From positions 6,262,001 to 6,326,000 of the forward strand of contig OY754468.1 in NCBI GenBank assembly GCA_963575645.1: a stretch of DNA of 64,000 nt, read 5' to 3'. Shown here in pieces: positions 629-36,560 of the stretch. Source of the DNA: Xanthostigma xanthostigma. Its lineage: Eukaryota > Arthropoda > Insecta > Raphidioptera > Raphidiidae. Position numbers and translations under genes: made by a program. The first letter of the stretch is position 1. Every line of letters begins with the position of its first letter. The notes beneath the pieces were generated by a model. The model did no database searches, was not told the origin of the DNA, and was given only the letters and a program-made list of their open reading frames with translations.

Positions 629-1284
629 TCAGACCAAATAATTCATGTAGTTTTGAAAGTTGGTACAGTTATTCCTAAAGGTGTCCAGATGAATATACTA
701 AAAGCCCCCGAGGGAGGGACACGAGCCGGCGATGGGGGAGGGGGGGAAAGGTCTCTTTTTCAAGGTTTTTGCTTGTGACTCGAAAACTATTTATAATATC
801 TCTTTAGTGACTTCTACATTAATCATCTACATTAAATTTCCTATAAATTATGTCTAAACATTTTTACTGTACGATCAATACTTTAGGAGATACAGAGTAT
901 TAAAGGTGATAAAAATAAGAAGCTAAATCGTTTTACAAATTTTAATTCTGAAAAATTAAAAAAAATTCTTATGCCGACTTATCAATCAAATTGTGTTTCA
1001 TCTTCGTCATCTTTATCATTAACATCGATGGGGGCTCCATTGGTACAAGCGCCTAGGCAGCCGTTACAGATATGACTACACTTAATGCCCGCTTTTCGAC
1101 AACTGCATTTTCCAGAACAACCACTTTTACATCGGCAAAAAATTGAAACTAACAACGCGTCAGGAGCAGGAGGATCCAAGGTCGTGATTGGTTCTAAGTT
1201 TCCATCGACTCCTTGCTTCCAACCCCATATTTCAGGAGGCAGTTGGTTCCCAAGCCACTCCTGTACTTGATGGAACACTCTGTT
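629..1284 (+). repeat. Left arm of a large inverted repeat
   Basis: This segment is the near-identical reverse complement of 2201-2855, with a few substitutions and single-base indels. The outer ends read TCAGACC on the left and GGTCTGA on the right. The inner boundary falls where the ACTCTGT match stops. The spacer is about 0.9 kb. The arm carries an antisense copy of the last ~98 codons of the ORF in the right arm. It could be a very long terminal inverted repeat or a post-insertion inverted duplication. I see no convincing target duplication outside the arms. Confidence 0.85.
982..1278 (-). pseudogene. Antisense truncated copy of the CXC-domain C-terminus
   Basis: Ninety-eight codons repeat the C-terminal part of the ORF at 1270-2502 almost exactly (for example GWKQGVDG against GWKRGVDG), including the whole cysteine-rich CXC block and the acidic tail. 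It is a by-product of the inverted duplication and has no N-terminal nuclease part. Upstream of it, past position 1285, the sequence switches to the spacer. It is unlikely to be a functional gene. Confidence 0.75.
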
Positions 1285-2502
1285 TTATCGAAATCCGACA
1301 CTAATGTAAATTTGAAAACTAGTGAGACGGTTATTGATAGTGGCTTTCTTTTGCACCGTACCAAGTGGCAATTGGGCTCCTCTTACTCAGATATATGTGA
1401 TCAGTACATAAATTATGTAAAATGTCATTACGGGCCACCTTCTACCGTAGTGTTTGATGGATACGATGACGTAAAAAATAGCACAAACACATCTGAACAA
1501 AGAAGGAGGGCGGTGAAATCGTCTGTTGATATAAACACCAATCTCTCGATGAAGGTCACTGTTCAGCAAGAGAATTTTCTATCAAATACAAAAAAAAACA
1601 AGTCCCAACTGATTAAACTTCTGACAGAAAAAATGCAGGCTGCAAACATAGAAACACAAATAGCTGCAAGTGATGCTGACTGCACAATTATTCGCACTGC
1701 AATTGATAAAGCTGTAGACAATCTTGTGGTCACTGTTATTGGAGAAGATGTTGATCTTGTAGTCCTTCTAATGGCTCTTACCCCTCCTGAAAAAGAAATA
1801 TTTTTTGTCAAACCGGGAAGAGGAAAAGTGGAAACCAATATATTTTCCTCCCAAGAACTTCAAAAACATTCATTTTGCGGTTCTATTCTCTTTCTGCATA
1901 GTTTCAGTGGGTGTGATACAACCTCAGCTATTTACAGGAAGGGCAAAACATCAATTATCAAGATTTTTGATCAAAAGCCATTACTAAAGGAAATAGCAAC
2001 TGTATTTTATGACCCAACATCAACTCCGGATGTTATAGCAGAAGCCGGAGAAAAAATGTTTCTTGAAGTATACCGAGCGCCCTGTACTCAGTCTAAGATT
2101 AACAGACATCGATTCACAGTTTTTCTGAAATCTTGTACCAAGCCCAAACCGGATCTTTTTTCCCTCCCCCCTACCAAAGGGTCAGCGAAATATCACGCTT
2201 ACAGAGTATTCCATCAAGTACAGGAGTGGCTTGGGAACCAACTGCCTCCTGAAATATGGGGTTGGAAGCGAGGAGTCGATGGAAACTTAGAACCAATCAC
2301 GACCTTGGATCCTCCTGCTCCTGACGCGTTGTTAAGTTCAATTTTTTGCCGATGTAAAAGTGGTTGTTCTGGAAAATGCAGTTGCCGAAAAGCGGGCATT
2401 AAGTGTAGTCATATCTGTAACGGCTGCCTAGGCGCTTGTACCAATGGAGCCCCCATCGATGTTAATGATAAAGATGACGAAGATGAAACACAATTTGATT
2501 GA
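1270..2502 (+). CDS. N-truncated PIN/XPG-like nuclease fold plus CXC domain protein
   Basis: This is an open frame of 410 codons from the first methionine that sits mostly in gene-like sequence. I see the acidic pattern of the PIN/FEN1-XPG nuclease fold: VVFDGY (Asp ~63), DADC (Asp ~135 and 137), GEDVDLVVLL (Glu ~159, Asp ~160 and 162) and FSGCDTTSA (Asp ~216). These resemble the FDG, SEDxD and GxD motifs of FEN1. Residues ~360-390 hold a CXC (tesmin/TSO1-like) cysteine block (CRCKSGC, CSCRKAGIKC, CNGC), a known DNA-binding zinc motif. The tail is acidic. The first residues come from the inverted-repeat arm, so the native N-terminus is missing. The nuclease assignment is an inference from motif order and spacing. 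A mobile-element or domesticated origin is possible; I do not know the family name. Confidence 0.6.
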   Translation: MEHSVLSKSDTNVNLKTSETVIDSGFLLHRTKWQLGSSYSDICDQYINYVKCHYGPPSTVVFDGYDDVKNSTNTSEQRRRAVKSSVDINTNLSMKVTVQQENFLSNTKKNKSQLIKLLTEKMQAANIETQIAASDADCTIIRTAIDKAVDNLVVTVIGEDVDLVVLLMALTPPEKEIFFVKPGRGKVETNIFSSQELQKHSFCGSILFLHSFSGCDTTSAIYRKGKTSIIKIFDQKPLLKEIATVFYDPTSTPDVIAEAGEKMFLEVYRAPCTQSKINRHRFTVFLKSCTKPKPDLFSLPPTKGSAKYHAYRVFHQVQEWLGNQLPPEIWGWKRGVDGNLEPITTLDPPAPDALLSSIFCRCKSGCSGKCSCRKAGIKCSHICNGCLGACTNGAPIDVNDKDDEDETQFD

Positions 2503-13702: not shown

Positions 13703-14710
13703 CTAAGTACATAAAAAATCAGTATATTTGTATAAGCACATATTCTGCAGCATATTTTTAATTTTGTTTCTGAAAATGTTCAGTGGTAAGGTCTTTACAC
13801 TATTTGGAAGGTGATTATAAAATTTGGGTGCCCAAAAGTTGGGACCATTGATTAATTTATTGTTATTATAAAAAGGTACTCTTATGTCAGAACAGCTTCT
13901 GGTGCTGTGAGAATGTATTTGATTTACAGTTTCATAAATATCCAAATTTTGTTTTACATACATTAGGTTTTCAAATACGTACAGCGAATGCAATGTTAAT
14001 ATGTTAAAATGTTTAAATAGAGGAGCACAATGCTCGGTTGACTTTTTTTTGGCAATAATGCGAATCGCTCGTTTTTGCAATTTAAAAATTCTCACAGCAT
14101 CAGAAGCTGCTCCCCATAGTAGTATTCCATAGGATAAAACTGAATGAAATAAGCCATAGTATACATTTTTAATGACAGATTCTGAACAACATAAGGATAT
14201 CTTTCTGAGTAAAAAAATTACAGTTGTAAGTCTGTTACTTACATAGTTAATATGTTCCTTCCACTTCATGTCATTGTTAATATTCAAACCCAGAAATTTG
14301 ACATAATTTGTACTAGTACTTGAACCACAGTAACGGAAAATACATTGTTGCGTTTTTTCTTTGTTAAGTAGTAACTTGTTGCTTGAAAACCAATCCGACG
14401 CATTTTCAAGAGTTTTTGCAGACATTTCTTGTAATTTATTTATATCATTATGAACAGTAATAAAAGATGTGTCATCTGCATATAGATAAAATTGTGAATT
14501 TGTAATTTTATTAGGTAAATCATTGATATAAATAATGAATAACAGTGGTCCAAGTATGGATCCTTGTGGAACACCGCAATGTATTTCCCGGTACTGTGAT
14601 TCATCGTTAAGCACAGATACTTTTTGATAACGATTTGATAGATAAGACTTGAAAAACTCTTTGACAATACCTCTACAACCATAGAAATTTTTTCCTCCCG
14701 CTGTTCTCAC
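13703..14710 (-). pseudogene. 5'-truncated Jockey-like LINE reverse transcriptase
   Basis: An open frame of 335 codons contains reverse transcriptase motifs GVPQGSILGPLLFIIYINDLP (residues ~46-66; read as two overlapping pieces, GVPQGSILGPLLF and YINDLP), the catalytic YLYADDTSF (YADD ~77-80) and NKEKTQ. It then shows the thumb and C-terminal signature LSYGILLWG, FKLQKRAIRII and LPNSVKTLP. This is the layout of Jockey/CR1-group non-LTR elements. The endonuclease, gag-like ORF and N-terminal palm are missing, as usual after 5' truncation. The frame is intact, suggesting fairly recent arrival. The first ~10 residues come from the host element. Start codon choice is meaningless here. Confidence 0.9.
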
Positions 14711-17997: not shown

Positions 17998-18345
17998 GAA
18001 GAGCTGGCTACGGAGAAAATGGGTGACTCTGTGCAGAGCTGAAAATTTGCAGAATAATAGGAGATAGTACAAGTAAGTAGGGAAAAAATTGCCAGAAGGC
18101 TAGGTGGAAGGTAAAGAGCCGCCAGAAGGCGCTAATGTTGCAAAAAATCAGTGCACTTCTGGCAATTTCTATACTTATTTTGTAATTTTTTGCAACATTA
18201 GCGCCTTCTGGCGGCTCTTTACTTTCCACCTAGCCTTCTGGCAATTTTTTCCCTACTTACTTGTACTATCTCCTATTATTCTGCAAATTTTCAGCTCTGC
18301 ACCGAGTCACCCATTTTCTCCGTAGCCAGCTCTTAGCCCATTAGT
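17998..18345. mobile_element. Foldback element, ~150-bp arms
   Basis: The left arm (~18000-18150) and right arm (~18182-18335) are almost perfect reverse complements. Both contain AAAATGGGTGACTC/GAGTCACCCATTTT and GCCGCCAGAAGGCGCTAATG. A ~30-bp loop separates them. It is inserted within the 3' region of the first antifreeze-like gene. Confidence 0.85.
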
Positions 18346-18374
18346 ATAGATATATAGATATAGAAATAACGTAA

Positions 18375-18427
18375 AAGTCAGTATTTTTGAAGTTGAAAAT
18401 AATAGTCCTGTCGCTCTATTCTGCTGG
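18375..18427 (-). mobile_element. Family F terminus fused to the 3' end of antifreeze-like gene 1
   Basis: On the minus strand this begins CCAGCAGAATAGAGCGACAG and continues to TTTCAACTTCAAAAATACTG. It parallels the family F end CCAGCCAATTGGGCGAC...CATTCCAACTTC. The gene's stop codon (18416-18418) lies within it. Confidence 0.65.
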
Positions 18428-18832
18428 AACTGTGTCATAATCATATTGGTTTTTGACAACTTCGCGATATTTGGGACATCCTGTTGAAATGATACAGTTC
18501 GTAGCTTGAAAACAGTCTAACGAGCTGATGCAAGAGTCAGCCTTATGACAGTTTGATGAGCTTACACATCTCCTAGCTGTAATACAGCCTTCTGAACTTG
18601 TACATGTCCTAGCAGCAGTACAGCCATCTGAACTTACACATGTTTCTGCCTTGACACAATTTTGAGAAGCGGTACACTTTTTTGCATTTATACAGTTGGC
18701 ACATCCAACACATTCTGTTGTACAAGTGGGACAAAAGGAACCTGTGCACTGACAATAACACTGGGTACACAAACACAGAACTATAACCGCTATTACCAGC
18801 CATTTTTTTGTCAAAGAATTTCCACCAAACAT
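18416..18832 (-). CDS. Antifreeze-like cysteine-rich repeat protein, gene 1
   Basis: This intact, intronless frame encodes 138 residues. Residues 1-27 are a signal peptide (charged TKKW, then the core [11 protein letters not shown], ending CYC), so the product is secreted. From Gln28 a cysteine recurs every six residues, giving ~12-residue coils such as [12 protein letters not shown] and [12 protein letters not shown]. This is the disulfide-braced beta-solenoid pattern of Tenebrio/Dendroides antifreeze proteins, which bind ice with stacked Thr-Cys-Thr. Here the motif positions read KCT, TCV, TCT, RCV, SCI, NCI, so only one TCT remains. A 16-residue tail (REVV...VPAE) extends beyond the usual family end. 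Mature length is ~111 against roughly 84 in the family. The ATG context is AAAATG. Activity is uncertain; membership in the family is not. Confidence 0.9.
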
Positions 18833-18869
18833 TTTGAATGACGTTATTTGTCTCGCTGTTTACTTCGAA

Positions 18870-18905
18870 CGACTGCTGCATTCGGCTCAGCTCTCTAAAA
18901 ATATA
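18870..18905 (-). promoter_or_regulatory. TATA/initiator core promoter of antifreeze-like gene 1
   Basis: On the minus strand TATATTTTTA (18896-18905) is followed about 30 bp downstream by GCAGTCG (18870-18876), an arthropod-type initiator. This predicts a ~41-nt 5' leader. The same arrangement is conserved in gene 2. Confidence 0.65.
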
Positions 18906-19002
18906 ATACCACAAACAAGGGATAACGTATCATCGAGGATAACAGTCACCTTTGGCTTCACAGAAATTTAATATTATTTTGATAATTTTACATTATATTG
19001 AT

Positions 19003-19618
19003 AACACGGGTCAACACAAAAATTGTCTTTAACATTAGACTATGAAATTTCGATGAATTAGATGATAGTTAAACGAAAAAAAATTATATGGCTTAAAAAA
19101 GTTTGCTTTTGTATCCAGGGAACGTTTAAACCATATTTTCAAAAACTTGTGATTTTTACTTTAATTTTGTAAAAAAAACGATACAAATATAAATGTACAT
19201 TATTTTTATTAATTTTAACTATCAAATTTGTTTACAAAAAAGTGGAAAATAAGTCAAAAATGCACGGTATTACTTTTTCTTTTATGCTCGTAAGTACTTT
19301 CTCTCAATAAACCCCAAATATAGTCTCCCATCATATTTTCATTGTATTGGCCTTGATAACGTTGTTCGAAGTTCATATCTTGATGGAAACGTTCTCCTTG
19401 CTAGCATATGTACTTTTAAAGACATCCTGCAACCCATGACTAAAATTAATTGAAATTCCTATAAAAACTCGACAATGAGTATAATTACGACAGTTATCAC
19501 AAAAGCAAACTTTAAATAGAAAGAAGGTATTTTTTTATCGTTTTTGTGGCTAACTAATCAGAAAATCATAAAATAAACTTTAGGACAAGGAATGAAATTT
19601 TTTTTGTAGAGCCGTGTA
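19003..19618. mobile_element. Insertion with ACACGGGTC/GAGCCGTGT ends
   Basis: The flanks TTGATA and AATCGTAGCACA are contiguous (TTGATAATCGTAGCACA) in block copy 2 at 22836-22853, which gives the empty site. Ends ACACGGGTCAACACAAAAAT and the complement of ATTTTTTTTGTAGAGCCGTG are inverted. A TA-type target is likely. There is no coding. Confidence 0.65.
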
Positions 19619-19810
19619 ATCGTAGCACACTGTCTTATATTTTTTATGAGGTTATAAAGTTGTGTGTGTTAAGTATTAATGTTTATTTGGCTTAATTCTT
19701 CAATGACATTTTAAATGCAAAAAATTAAAAAGTTTTCACAGGTTTGTTTTAATTTAAATCTTAAGTACCCATTATGAATGACCATATCAAAGAAGATATG
19801 TATAGTAATA

Positions 19811-20667
19811 ACGGGTGTCCCAAAATTTACGCAAGATTTGAATAGAAAACAGAGTTTTTCTTAAATAAATTTTAATTTCTTTATTGGAACATAATGTACA
19901 TAGTCTAGGGTTACATATGAAATAACACATCGGACATATGGCCTCCACGACTTTGCTGACAAATACTAACTCTTTTTTCAAAATTTTCTATCACCATTCC
20001 GCATAAATGTGGCTGAATTTCATTGATACAGCGTTAAATCTCTTCCTTCAATGCACGGGTGGTTAGAGGCTTGTTGGCATAGACCTGTGACTTCAAAAAA
20101 AAACCCATAGAAAAAAAATCCAGTGAGGTTAAATCAGATGATCTAGGGGGCCAATTCTGATCACCGAAATGAGAGAGTACACGACCAGGAAATGTCTCTT
20201 CAAGTAATTCAATAGTTTCACGGGATGTATGGCATGTGGCACCATTTTGTTGAAACCACATGTCGTCCACATCAATATTTTCTATTTTAGGAAGAAAGAA
20301 CTCTCTTATCATGTTGCGATATCGAACACCAGTAACAGTTACTGCTTGACCAGCCTCATTTTCAAAGAAGTATGGTCCAATGATGCCTCCAGCCCAAAAT
20401 TCGCACCAAACAGTGACACGTTGTGAATGCATCTTTTTTTCTCTCTAAATTTTTTAATGATTTCCTTCACAGTTGAAGAATTTAAAACAATATTACGACC
20501 ATATTTTGTGCGAAATTTGCGAATTGTGGCAGCAAAACTTTCACCATTTTTAAAATATTGTTCAACAATAAACTATTAGCTGAGAAACTGTCTTTTTTTT
20601 TGTTAGAAACACTTTACCTCACAAATGGCGGCAAATTCAAATTTTGCGTAAATTTTGAGACACTCTT
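19811..20667 (-). mobile_element. D41D mariner-family element, second defective copy
   Basis: Ends ACGGGTGTCCCAAAATTTACGC (left; 22 bases here read as ACGGGTGTCCC plus AAAATTTACGC) and its imperfect complement at 20645-20667 are flanked by TA. On the minus strand the helix-turn-helix region (FIVEQYFKNGESFAATIRKF) is followed, after a deletion, by the catalytic domain. Confidence 0.85.
20034..20432 (-). pseudogene. Mariner transposase catalytic domain, D41D, inactivated
   Basis: A frame of 132 codons contains VTVWCEFWAGGIIGPYFFE and then WFQQNGATCHT, where the second catalytic Asp has become Asn. SSDLTSLDFFSMGF follows, with 41 residues from the mutated position to the third Asp. The N-terminal half lies upstream in another frame. 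It is the same group as the element at 9679-12470 but a distinct lineage. Confidence 0.8.
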
Positions 20668-20722
20668 TATTTACATGTAAATAGGTTTCCTACAGACCAG
20701 CAGTTCAGACAAAAATGGCTTG

Positions 20723-21110
20723 ATGTCCTTGGTAGTACGAGCACCAAGGCAATTTTAAATAAAAGGCTTGATTTTTTTTAATATGAAGTTGGACTAAGTC
20801 TAAACCAATTCTGAAAATTTTAGGGGGGGTTGCCCGATTATTTAAATAAATAAATGACTTCAAAAGTAGGCATATTTAACATTGGCTTTATGGTAAAACG
20901 GTAGATGGATGATATGTTTTCATTGATTTCTCCAAAACTAGTCGGTGGAAATAAAAAAAAACTATTTAAATTAAAGTTAAAACCTTAATAAATTATTGAA
21001 AACAAAAAAGAACCGTTGTGCCCGACTAATTAAAAAGATTAAATATCTTCTTAATTAGTCGAGAACAACGGTTTTTTTTTGTTTTCAATAAAGGCCATAT
21101 AATAATTATC
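20723..21110. mobile_element. Foldback family G, copy 1
   Basis: It shares GTAGTACGAGCACCAAGGC, GGCTTGATTTTTTT, AACGGTAGATGGATG and AACCGTTGTGCCC with 30770-31262. It has a central palindrome (AACCGTTGTGCCC...GAACAACGGTT, 21010-21075). The outer right arm is missing in this copy. Confidence 0.65.
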
Positions 21111-21247
21111 TCGTAAACTACTTATTCAATTTAGGTACTTGAAATTTTCAAGGTATATTTTCGATACATCATGCTACAAGAAAATGCAAAAAAAGAAATC
21201 GATTTTTTCAAAATCTTGACTATCTCTAACCTTTTAAACAAAATCCT

Positions 21248-21368
21248 ATGCTATTTATGTAAAAAAAATGTTTTCATACGATATTCATTCAAAACTTATA
21301 AATACATATTTTTTTACAAGTTTTGAATGAATATCATATGAAAATATTTTTTTTACATAAATAGCATA
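21248..21368. repeat. Near-perfect ~48-bp-arm hairpin
   Basis: CTATTTATGTAAAAAAAATG ... TTCATTCAAAACTT is mirrored, after a ~19-bp loop, by AAGTTTTGAATGAA ... TTTTTTTTACATAAATAG. It is probably the centre of a foldback element. Confidence 0.7.
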
Positions 21369-21589
21369 CCTATATATTGTAAATAAATACAATAAAATTA
21401 ACAATTTTAATTTTTTATTACAAATAGCTGTGCCAAGATATTGAATGGCAACCAAATCAATTTTTCTTAATATATTATATTATCAAGTTCCAAATTTCAT
21501 TAGAAAACTCGATGGGTGAAGATCAAACCTAACTGGGATCGCAGACCAGCACTAGCTTAGTCTACTTACTTTTATCTCTACATGATGAA

Positions 21590-22068
21590 TAGTATATTGT
21601 GCGACTAGTGAGAGAAGGAGAAGATTCCATGAGCGTGGTAACACGCGAGTGGAATATTCTCCTTCGATCAATGGTCGCACATAATACTTTATTCAACTAG
21701 CACGAGTAATATGTAATCGGGGCCCTGATAAAAGAGGGAAAAATAATAAATCACTTCATTGATTAACGTACCCACCGCTCTCGATGCACACAAGATGGCC
21801 CTGACTTTCGCTGAATTGCGATGCTGTTTTCATATATACAAATCGCTACCGCGTTCCTATTAGTCCAGAAACTATGCAGTAATAAATCATTACCGTACAG
21901 TTTCGGCTCGCTACCGCGTTCCTATTGGTTCAGAAACTATTCAGTTATACATTATCGTACAGTTTCGGCTCATTATTAGCATTCTACGCGTCAACATGAA
22001 GTAATTTATTATTTCTCCCGAATTTAGCAGGGCCCCGAAATTATATATTACTCACGCGTGCTGAATAA
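21590..22068. mobile_element. Insertion with ~85-bp inverted ends and internal tandem repeat
   Basis: It sits between CTACATGATGA and AACCATATTATG, which are nearly adjacent in block copy 1 (16520-16545). Arms 21688-21775 and 21985-22068 share TTATTCAACTAGCACG and CGGGGCCCTG in inverted form. Inside, a ~63-bp unit (CTACCGCGTTCCTATT ... CAGTTTCGGCT) is repeated twice (21845-21970). A further hairpin (GTGCGAC ... GTCGCAC) is at 21598-21672. Confidence 0.7.
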
Positions 22069-22231
22069 ACCATATTATGTAACCATATAAACGAAATGAG
22101 GATATAACATTTATTACTAACCGTTACCCTCATCACGACACGCATTAACAGAAATTTTATTTTATTTATAAAAATGTGTCAAATGTCAATATTTTTTAAA
22201 TTGAAATAGTCCTGTCGCCCTATTCTGCTGG
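22064..22231 (-). mobile_element. Family F fragment fused to the 3' end of antifreeze-like gene 2
   Basis: From the minus-strand CCAGCAGAATAGGGCGACAG through ATATTGACATTTGACA, AAATAAAATTTCTG and GGTTACATAATATGG, this follows family F for ~165 bp. It holds the gene's last three codons plus stop (22220-22231). It also holds overlapping AATAAA signals at 22156-22166, about 55-60 nt past the stop. Confidence 0.75.
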
Positions 22232-22672
22232 GACTGTGTCATACACATATTGGTTTTCGACAACTTCGCGATGTTTCGGACATCCTGTTGAATAGATGCA
22301 GGTCGTAGCTTTGTAGCAATTGGTTGATTCAATGCATGTTGCGGCTTCAAAACAGTCTAACGAGCTGATGCAAGTCACAGCCTTATGACAGTTTGATGAG
22401 CTTGCACATGTCCTAGCTGTAATACAGCCTTCTGAACTTCTACATGTCCTAGCAGCAGTACAGCCATCTGAACTTATACATGTTTCTGCTCTGACACAAT
22501 TTTGAGAAGCGGTACACTTTTTTGCATTTATACAGTTGGCACATCCAATACATTCTGTTGTACAAGTGGGGCAAGAGGAACCTGTGCACTGACAATAACA
22601 CTGGGTACACAAACACAGAACTATAACTGCGATTACCAGCCATTTTTTTGTCAAAGAATTTCCACCAAACAT
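22220..22672 (-). CDS. Antifreeze-like cysteine-rich repeat protein, gene 2
   Basis: This intact intronless frame of 150 residues is paralogous to 18416-18832, with the same 27-residue signal peptide ending CYC. The mature part (~123 residues) has cysteines every six residues. It has one more 12-residue coil than gene 1, in the [12 protein letters not shown] area. The ice-face triplets read KCT, TCI, TCR, TCA, TCI, TCI, TCI. The first Thr of the family's Thr-Cys-Thr motif is kept in six of seven coils while the second is replaced, mostly by Ile. The tail ends VYDTVPAE, and its final residues and stop lie in family F sequence. In the known family these proteins are secreted to hemolymph and lower the freezing point. 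Whether this version binds ice is open. Confidence 0.9.
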
Positions 22673-22709
22673 TTTGAATGACGTTATTTGTCTCGCTGTT
22701 TACTTCGAA

Positions 22710-22745
22710 CGACTGCTGCATTCGGCTCAGCTCTCTAAAAATATA
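22710..22745 (-). promoter_or_regulatory. TATA/initiator core promoter of antifreeze-like gene 2
   Basis: TATATTTTTA (22736-22745) and GCAGTCG (22710-22716) on the minus strand are at the same spacing and with the same sequence as in gene 1. Near-identity of the promoter runs ~135 bp upstream of the ATG, then breaks. Confidence 0.65.
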
Positions 22746-22958
22746 ATACCACAAACAAGGGATAACTTATCACCGAGGATAACAGTCACCTTTGGCTTCA
22801 CAGAAATTTAACATTTGATAATTTTACATTATATTGATAATCGTAGCACATTGTGTTATATTTTCACGAACAATTTCGAGCTCTCCTCGACCCCCTCTAT
22901 CTCTGAGGCTATTTACAGAACTTATTTTATTTTCAGGTGAGTTAAGGTTACTAGATAT

Positions 22959-36062: not shown

Positions 36063-36560
36063 TCAGCATGAAAATCTGTGAGTGAACAATAAATCACCCC
36101 TATTTTCCCATCCTTAGGGTAGGATTTTTTTTCCAAATTTATATGAGACCAACCTCGAGTTATACCCTATCCAATAAAAAAATAATTATCAAAATCGGAC
36201 TACTCTGTAAAAAGTTATGCGTAGTCATACATTACAATCTGTGAGTGAACAATCAATAATCCCGTTTTCCTACCCTTAGGGTTGAAATTTTTTTTCCAAA
36301 TTTATATGGGACTAGCTTCGGGGTATGCCCTTTCCAATAAAAAAAGAATTATCAAAATTGGACTACTCGGTAAAAAGTTATGTGTGGTCATACATTACAA
36401 TCAGTGAGTGAACAATCAATTATCCCCTGTTTTCCTACCCTTAGGGTTGGAATTTTTTTACCAAATTTATATGGGACCAACTTCGGGGTATACCCTTTCA
36501 AACAATAAAAAAATTATCAAAATCGGACTGCTCTGTAAAAAGTTATGCGTGGTCATACAT
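36063..36560 (+). repeat. Three tandem ~170-bp units
   Basis: Units contain GTGAGTGAACAATCAATAAT, CCTACCCTTAGGGTTGAA, TTTATATGGGAC, CCAATAAAAAAA and AAAAAGTTATGCGTGGTCAT. They are followed by a long A-rich tract (36565-36597) and a CCTCCTCCGTTTTTGTTTTT terminus (36618-36637). Together with 35524-36012 this may be one composite element ending in CGTCGGTTAAAAAT. Confidence 0.75.

Follow-up and report, generated by a model that had tools for sequence, protein, structure and literature searches.

The window studied here is a stretch of 64,000 nucleotides from the genome of the snakefly Xanthostigma xanthostigma (assembly GCA_963575645.1, contig OY754468.1, positions 6,262,001 to 6,326,000), and it contains two genes, A and B, which encode proteins of the Tenebrio-type antifreeze protein (AFP) family. 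The genes lie on the minus strand with their starts 3.8 kb apart. An earlier sequence-only reading described them as intact and intronless, and each is indeed a single open frame that runs uninterrupted from ATG to stop. Their parts, in window positions, are as follows.

18416..18832, minus strand: gene A, solenoid of the AFP family with a degenerate ice face, 138 amino acids, single open frame from ATG to stop
18752..18832, minus strand: signal peptide of A, 27 amino acids, same sequence as that of B
18467..18682, minus strand: six 12-residue coils of A
18419..18466, minus strand: C-terminal tail of A, 16 residues
18833..19004, minus strand: conserved 5′ leader and proximal promoter of A, TATA-like stretch at 18900-18909 (by eye)
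22220..22672, minus strand: gene B, solenoid of the AFP family with a degenerate ice face, 150 amino acids, single open frame from ATG to stop
22592..22672, minus strand: signal peptide of B, 27 amino acids, homologous to the Tenebrio AFP signal peptide
22271..22522, minus strand: seven 12-residue coils of B
22307..22342, minus strand: coil of B without a counterpart in A, positioned according to coil register (the optimal codon gap is two codons off)
22223..22270, minus strand: C-terminal tail of B, 16 residues
22673..22840, minus strand: conserved 5′ leader and proximal promoter of B, TATA-like stretch at 22740-22749 (by eye)

The signal-like N-termini of A and B are identical over 27 residues, without an amino-acid change between the copies, and are followed by the sequence QCTG. 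The signal peptide common to both genes had been recognized previously, as had the common promoter, which consists of the TATA-like stretch and the conserved leader; the 172 bases upstream of the start codons differ by three substitutions and one 4-base gap. The duplicated block extends from approximately 40 bases past the stop codon to approximately 170 bases upstream of the ATG (A 18373-19004, B 22181-22840). Apart from the 12-codon coil found only in B, the aligned genes differ in 21 codons, 15 of which change the amino acid and six of which are silent, and their synonymous distance (dS) is approximately 0.09. From residue 47 onward the pair have one cysteine per six residues, a spacing that had been noted in the earlier reading. 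The cysteines of the N-cap are spaced 5-3-4-3-3, compared with 6-3-4-3-3 in the Tenebrio molitor thermal hysteresis protein (PDB 1ezg), and the spacing in the 12-residue coils is the same as in 1ezg.

The cysteine pattern is not a product of chance, because a phmmer search of PDB chains returns 1ezg with E-values of 4.3e-15 for A and 6.7e-19 for B. Comparison of both frames with Tenebrio proteins had been proposed as a check of the sequence-only reading, and the matches are significant. In a search of 5.8 billion sequences with B, the sole protein match was from Tenebrio (E 1.3e-24). The similarity includes the signal peptides: comparisons of six from the snakefly with two from Tenebrio give scores of 72–106, which none of 20,000 shuffles reaches in any of the 12 comparisons, and the score of 94 between B and the Tenebrio sequence P0001 is likewise reached by none of 20,000. 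The nearest snakefly signal peptides are 59–70% identical to those of Tenebrio P0001 and P0002. Convergence of the leaders is therefore excluded, and the signal peptides of the snakefly and Tenebrio are, as judged from their sequences, truly homologous. The pair are predicted to form right-handed disulfide solenoids. In the structure predicted for B, the means of ten-residue blocks in the solenoid are 89–94 in the predicted local distance difference test (pLDDT) over residues 51–130, and residues 138–150, within the tail, are below 50. Fold-search matches beyond 1ezg and 1l1i were weak and were set aside.

The genome of 623,323,696 bases in 28 contigs was searched at the protein level with B and with Tenebrio P0001, counts of large families being lower bounds. 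Both searches retrieved the same 19 loci on three chromosomes, C5 (53.13 Mb, including the window), C4 (54.71 Mb), and C2 (69.27 Mb):

C5, 3.45-3.50 Mb: four members
C5, 6.28 Mb: the window pair
C5, 13.53 Mb: two members
C5, 13.65 Mb: one member
C5, 13.84-13.90 Mb: six members, including one at C5:13901690-13902100 (hereafter C5:13.90) in which the coil cysteines are intact and no coil reads Thr-Cys-Thr; this member ends at GCP without a tail
C4, 24.18 Mb: three members
C2, 23.48 Mb: one member

At each of the 19 loci the reading frame stays open from ATG to stop. The genes thus belong to a multi-copy family, as had been anticipated. However, the window is not the edge of a larger cluster, since the next members on the same chromosome end at approximately position 3,498,590, about 2.8 Mb from A, and the others are further away on C5, C4, and C2. 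Some copies are recent: the genes at 3.47 and 3.48 Mb of C5 are identical across 1,581 bases, and one C4 gene and one C5 gene are 97% identical across 1,602 bases. The leader and promoter core are common to all 19 members, which disfavors an origin of the copies by retroposition. A further upstream element, GAATAGCCAACGGCTAGGG and its variants, occurs in 13 of the 17 genes outside the pair, including C5:13.90, and is shortened in the other four; it was not seen in A or B. A single mobile element as the carrier of the genes was considered and rejected, as the nine loci compared out of 19 show no common boundary; in this comparison the pair share just the stretch from approximately 170 bases before the gene to 40 bases after it. 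No relatives of the family were found in viral contigs or in a collection of prokaryote genomes.

The two-gene locus had been taken to identify its source as a beetle, which is incorrect: the genome is that of a raphidiopteran, and its ND2 is nearest to Raphidiidae. The ND2 protein from the mitochondrial contig C28 is 79% identical to that of Mongoloraphidia harmandi and 71% to that of Agulla arizonica. The comparison scored 7,991 candidates, those sharing most words; among the 120 matches listed, ranks 7–21 belong to genera of Inocelliidae, and the first beetle, Scirtes, is at rank 75 with 56% identity. Contig C28 (17,745 bases) also carries COX1, and fragments of COX1 in the nuclear contigs C6 and C2 are 91–92% identical to it; therefore, the nuclear and mitochondrial sequences belong together. 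Just downstream of A is a palindromic repeat resembling a miniature inverted-repeat transposable element (17999..18332, no strand assigned), the arms of which are 92% alike. Its half-units recur on C1–C10 and C12 at approximately 97% identity (40 of 256 candidates scored), and A therefore resides in DNA native to this genome. By this evidence both genes of the pair lie in native DNA of the snakefly assembly. The assembly is curated and at chromosome level, which makes contamination a very unlikely source of the family. The repeat itself has perhaps been active recently.

The ice-binding face was assessed from the residues on either side of each coil's first cysteine, counted from the first coil on in all 19 proteins. 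Coil cysteines are complete in every one of them. The coils of A read KCT, TCV, TCT, RCV, SCI, and NCI, and those of B read KCT, TCI, TCR, TCA, TCI, TCI, and TCI. The pair have threonine at the third position in three of 13 coils, at the first position in eight, and at both in one. By contrast, the 16 genes other than the pair and C5:13.90, here called canonical, have third-position threonine in 84 of 96 coils (and serine in seven), first-position threonine in 80, and both in 69. The difference at the third position has a Fisher p of 3e-6, a value that treats coils and copies as independent although they are not. The canonical genes thus carry the Thr-Cys-Thr array, most of which the pair have lost. 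One canonical gene, C5:13.8457, has serine at five of six third positions. In C5:13.90, none of seven coils has third-position threonine, one has first-position threonine, and none has both. In B, first-position threonine is preserved in six of seven coils and isoleucine occupies four of seven third positions; the first positions of A include Arg, Ser, and Asn. The cut-off of Pfam family PF02420 is 36.5 bits, which neither B (20.8 bits) nor C5:13.90 (24.4 bits) reaches, and A has no match at E up to 1; individual scores were obtained for seven of the 16 canonical genes, and each is above the cut-off (39.6–80.5 bits). The earlier designation of A and B as antifreeze genes is thus upheld with respect to homology, but their antifreeze function is doubtful, given the few third-position threonines and the Pfam scores. 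Of the third-position codons that have been replaced, 14 of 17 could be turned into a threonine codon by a single base change (B 6/6, A 2/4, C5:13.90 6/7), compared with 41 of 88 control positions (one-sided p 0.006), which fits decay from threonine. The ice face would have been lost once or twice within the snakefly family.

The pair also differ from their relatives at the C-terminus. The other 17 members found stop at GCP or GCPP and have no tail, whereas A and B continue beyond GCP with PKH or PKY, followed by another 16 residues. The 3′ flank of the pair does not align with that of other members, and the alignment is compatible with the tail arising by loss of a TAA stop. The PKH or PKY extension may be an older ending, because 1ezg ends with GCPGH, as does a Dorcus primer (PMC8038014).

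Comparison of the pair with seven of the 16 canonical genes gives dS of 0.75–1.06 and a ratio of non-synonymous to synonymous change (dN/dS) of 0.19–0.39. In neutral simulations with two templates, approximately 10 of 20 cysteines were lost at 0.3 substitutions per site and approximately 12 at 0.4, and all cysteines were kept in none of 5,000 runs at either distance. Together, the low ratio and the simulated losses indicate that the scaffold has been under selection for much of the branch leading to the pair.

The probable explanation of these observations is that A and B are divergent paralogues within the snakefly AFP family, secreted solenoids that derive from a Thr-Cys-Thr gene and are no longer hyperactive toward ice. 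The 16 canonical members have the appearance of working hyperactive AFPs, which would be secreted and form disulfide-ribbed right-handed β-solenoids, and by analogy with the Tenebrio protein TmAFP their Thr-Cys-Thr rows would adsorb to ice. The pair would have descended from such a gene with retention of the signal peptide, leader, core promoter, and all coil cysteines; most of the outward threonines of the third column would have been replaced by Ile, Val, Ala, or Arg. Both proteins also carry the 16-residue tail, past the point at which the other proteins end. A hyperactive antifreeze function of the pair is unlikely. B may still bind ice weakly or inhibit recrystallization because of its first-position threonines and the isoleucines at four third positions; A probably does neither. 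The likeliest use of the flat strip and tail would be a new ligand or a structural role. The family as a whole is probably an antifreeze family in another insect order.

Several points weigh against the interpretation of A and B as paralogues that have lost hyperactivity. Hydrophobic residues need not abolish ice binding. The model of B was built with Tenebrio rows in the alignment, and its Foldseek alignment with 1ezg is comparatively loose (E 3.9e-8, TM score by target length 0.64, root mean square deviation 4.9). Taken alone, A has two of four replaced third-position codons one base from threonine. Two repeats of DhbAFP3, an isoform from a stag beetle, read Thr-Cys-Ile (PMC8038014), although no activity figure was seen for this isoform. 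The dN/dS of the mature regions of A and B is 0.79–1.1 by three methods, which is close to neutral, and at the distance between A and B neutral drift keeps every cysteine in approximately 9% of runs; recent constraint on the pair is thus unproven. These rates, together with the loss of the ice face and the unalignable 3′ flank, would also suit decaying copies that are becoming pseudogenes. However, such decay is unlikely in view of the intact frames of both genes, the retention of every coil cysteine along a long branch, the unchanged signal peptide, and the nearly identical proximal leaders. It is less likely still that A and B are ordinary hyperactive AFPs that tolerate substitutions in the ice face. 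The conserved homology, predicted fold, signal peptide, and leader, the first-position threonines of B, and the Thr-Cys-Ile repeats of the stag beetle isoform agree with this alternative, but the scarcity of coils with both threonines relative to the canonical genes, the Arg, Ser, and Asn at first positions of A, and the Pfam results for both proteins contradict it. The probabilities assigned to the alternatives are not mutually exclusive.

In the full protein tree, five Tenebrio-like rows are split from the 19 snakefly genes with support of 98/94 (83/79 for the N-terminal part), and the pair with C5:13.90 form the first snakefly branch (92/87; N-terminal part 92/84). The order in an unrooted DNA tree is the pair, C5:13.90, the two 13.53 Mb genes, and the rest; the split that sets the pair and C5:13.90 apart has support of 94/90, and one alternative grouping of these genes is not rejected (p-AU 0.109). 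The synonymous distance of C5:13.90 is 0.49–0.77 to canonical genes and 1.11–1.17 to the pair. That the pair and C5:13.90 preserve a pre-antifreeze ancestor to which the Thr-Cys-Thr face was added later agrees with their first branching in the tree rooted on Tenebrio, their place at one end of the DNA tree, and a first-coil SQNC shared with Tenebrio P0001 and found in none of the 16 other genes, but it is very improbable because the outgroups P0001 and 1ezg have the threonine array, so that loss takes fewer steps, and because the replaced codons cluster one base from threonine.

Over the first 62 residues, the smallest difference between Tenebrio P0001 and any snakefly gene is 27.4% of sites, and the corresponding minima for the other three Tenebrio-like rows are 29.5, 30.0, and 35.6%; the window pair are 39–41% from P0001. 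Canonical snakefly paralogues are 0–27.6% apart over the same residues, with seven of 120 pairs at 25–30% (mean dS 0.33). The smallest distance between snakefly and Tenebrio is therefore no greater than the widest among canonical snakefly paralogues. The split of Coleopterida and Neuropterida is placed at approximately 364 million years ago (326–393; PMC7268685), after which silent sites should be saturated. Tenebrio-type AFPs are reported from stag beetles and a small number of tenebrionoid beetles, and are said to be absent from Tribolium (PMC10445852) and from a scarab genome (PMC8038014). The small distance despite the old split, together with the patchy distribution among beetles, suggests lateral transfer, and the authors of the stag beetle study propose a gene-transfer mechanism of unknown kind for the distribution of AFPs (PMC8038014). 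Snakefly larvae prey on beetle larvae according to the published note on this genome (PMC11871431), which is a possible contact and no evidence of transfer. As a single reading of the origin, lateral transfer is the most natural, but it is not proven. In the scenario that it suggests, the family would have passed between beetles and snakeflies, in either direction or to both from a third insect, long after their split, and would then have multiplied within the snakefly, with one or two branches giving up the ice face while the disulfide scaffold was kept for another use; we consider its chance to be slightly short of even. Unequal constraint could mislead the distance argument. Alpha-amylase was tried as a yardstick of rate and dropped, as the genome search gave a large multi-exon PF00128 family with no clear orthologue; a cluster of PF00128 (maltase/amylase-like) exon matches is located at C5:0.85-0.91 Mb.

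The snakefly proteins resemble TmAFP (PDB 1ezg/1l1i; PF02420) in signal peptide, cysteine spacing, 12-residue coils, and the right-handed solenoid predicted for B, and both families are multi-copy. However, they come from another insect order, and the pair lack most of the threonine array and have the tail. In addition, the 42 Tenebrio genes are reported to form one large cluster (PMC10445852), whereas the snakefly genes are scattered. The DhbAFPs of the stag beetle Dorcus hopei binodulosus were compared by published description; they have the consensus TCTxSxNCxxAx (PMC8038014) and, unlike the snakefly proteins, are from a beetle. Tenebrio Tm3 (K7TJK8, P0002) is similar to the pair in keeping its coil cysteines, in having third-position threonine in none of four coils, and in scoring 21.6 bits against the Pfam cut-off of 36.5. 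Unlike the pair, it groups with the Tenebrio rows, on a long branch, and has no tail; the ice face therefore appears to have been lost separately in this beetle protein and in the snakefly. Another protein, P0004, has 113 residues and Tenebrio-like 12-residue coils, but its leader is different and contains what looks by eye like a dibasic site; its repeat may have arisen separately, or its leader may have been exchanged. CfAFP of the spruce budworm is not known to be related in sequence to Tenebrio-type AFPs. It also has Thr-x-Thr rows on a β-solenoid and a multigene family, but its coils have 15 residues and its helix is left-handed (PMC9210311). Among the titles and abstract openings listed by searches of a literature collection that leaves out most subscription journals, none deals with snakefly antifreeze proteins. 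One listed paper, a taxonomic revision of lacewings (PMC11077268), contains both the words Raphidioptera and antifreeze, and the word antifreeze does not occur in the main text of two other snakefly genome papers.

The origin of the Tenebrio-type AFP is an open question, and the snakefly family takes it outside Coleoptera, so that transfer and deep inheritance become testable with existing genomes. If lateral transfer did take place, the family would represent a chromosome-anchored example of cold-survival genes crossing between insect orders, and its scattered occurrence among beetles could be accounted for. Members that keep the scaffold without the ice face provide natural controls for ice-binding residues and show how such proteins change function.

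Other features of the window are a truncated transposase-like frame between A and B, a reverse transcriptase frame, an open frame, and a tandem repeat.

20034..20432, minus strand: transposase-like frame, mariner-like by eye, with no Pfam match
13703-14710, minus strand: reverse transcriptase frame resembling a long interspersed nuclear element (RVT_1, E 4.7e-17)
1213-2502, plus strand: open frame of 429 amino acids, rich in cysteine at the C-terminus and matching no Pfam family above the cut-off
36073-36560: 163-base unit present three times in tandem, with 87% matches

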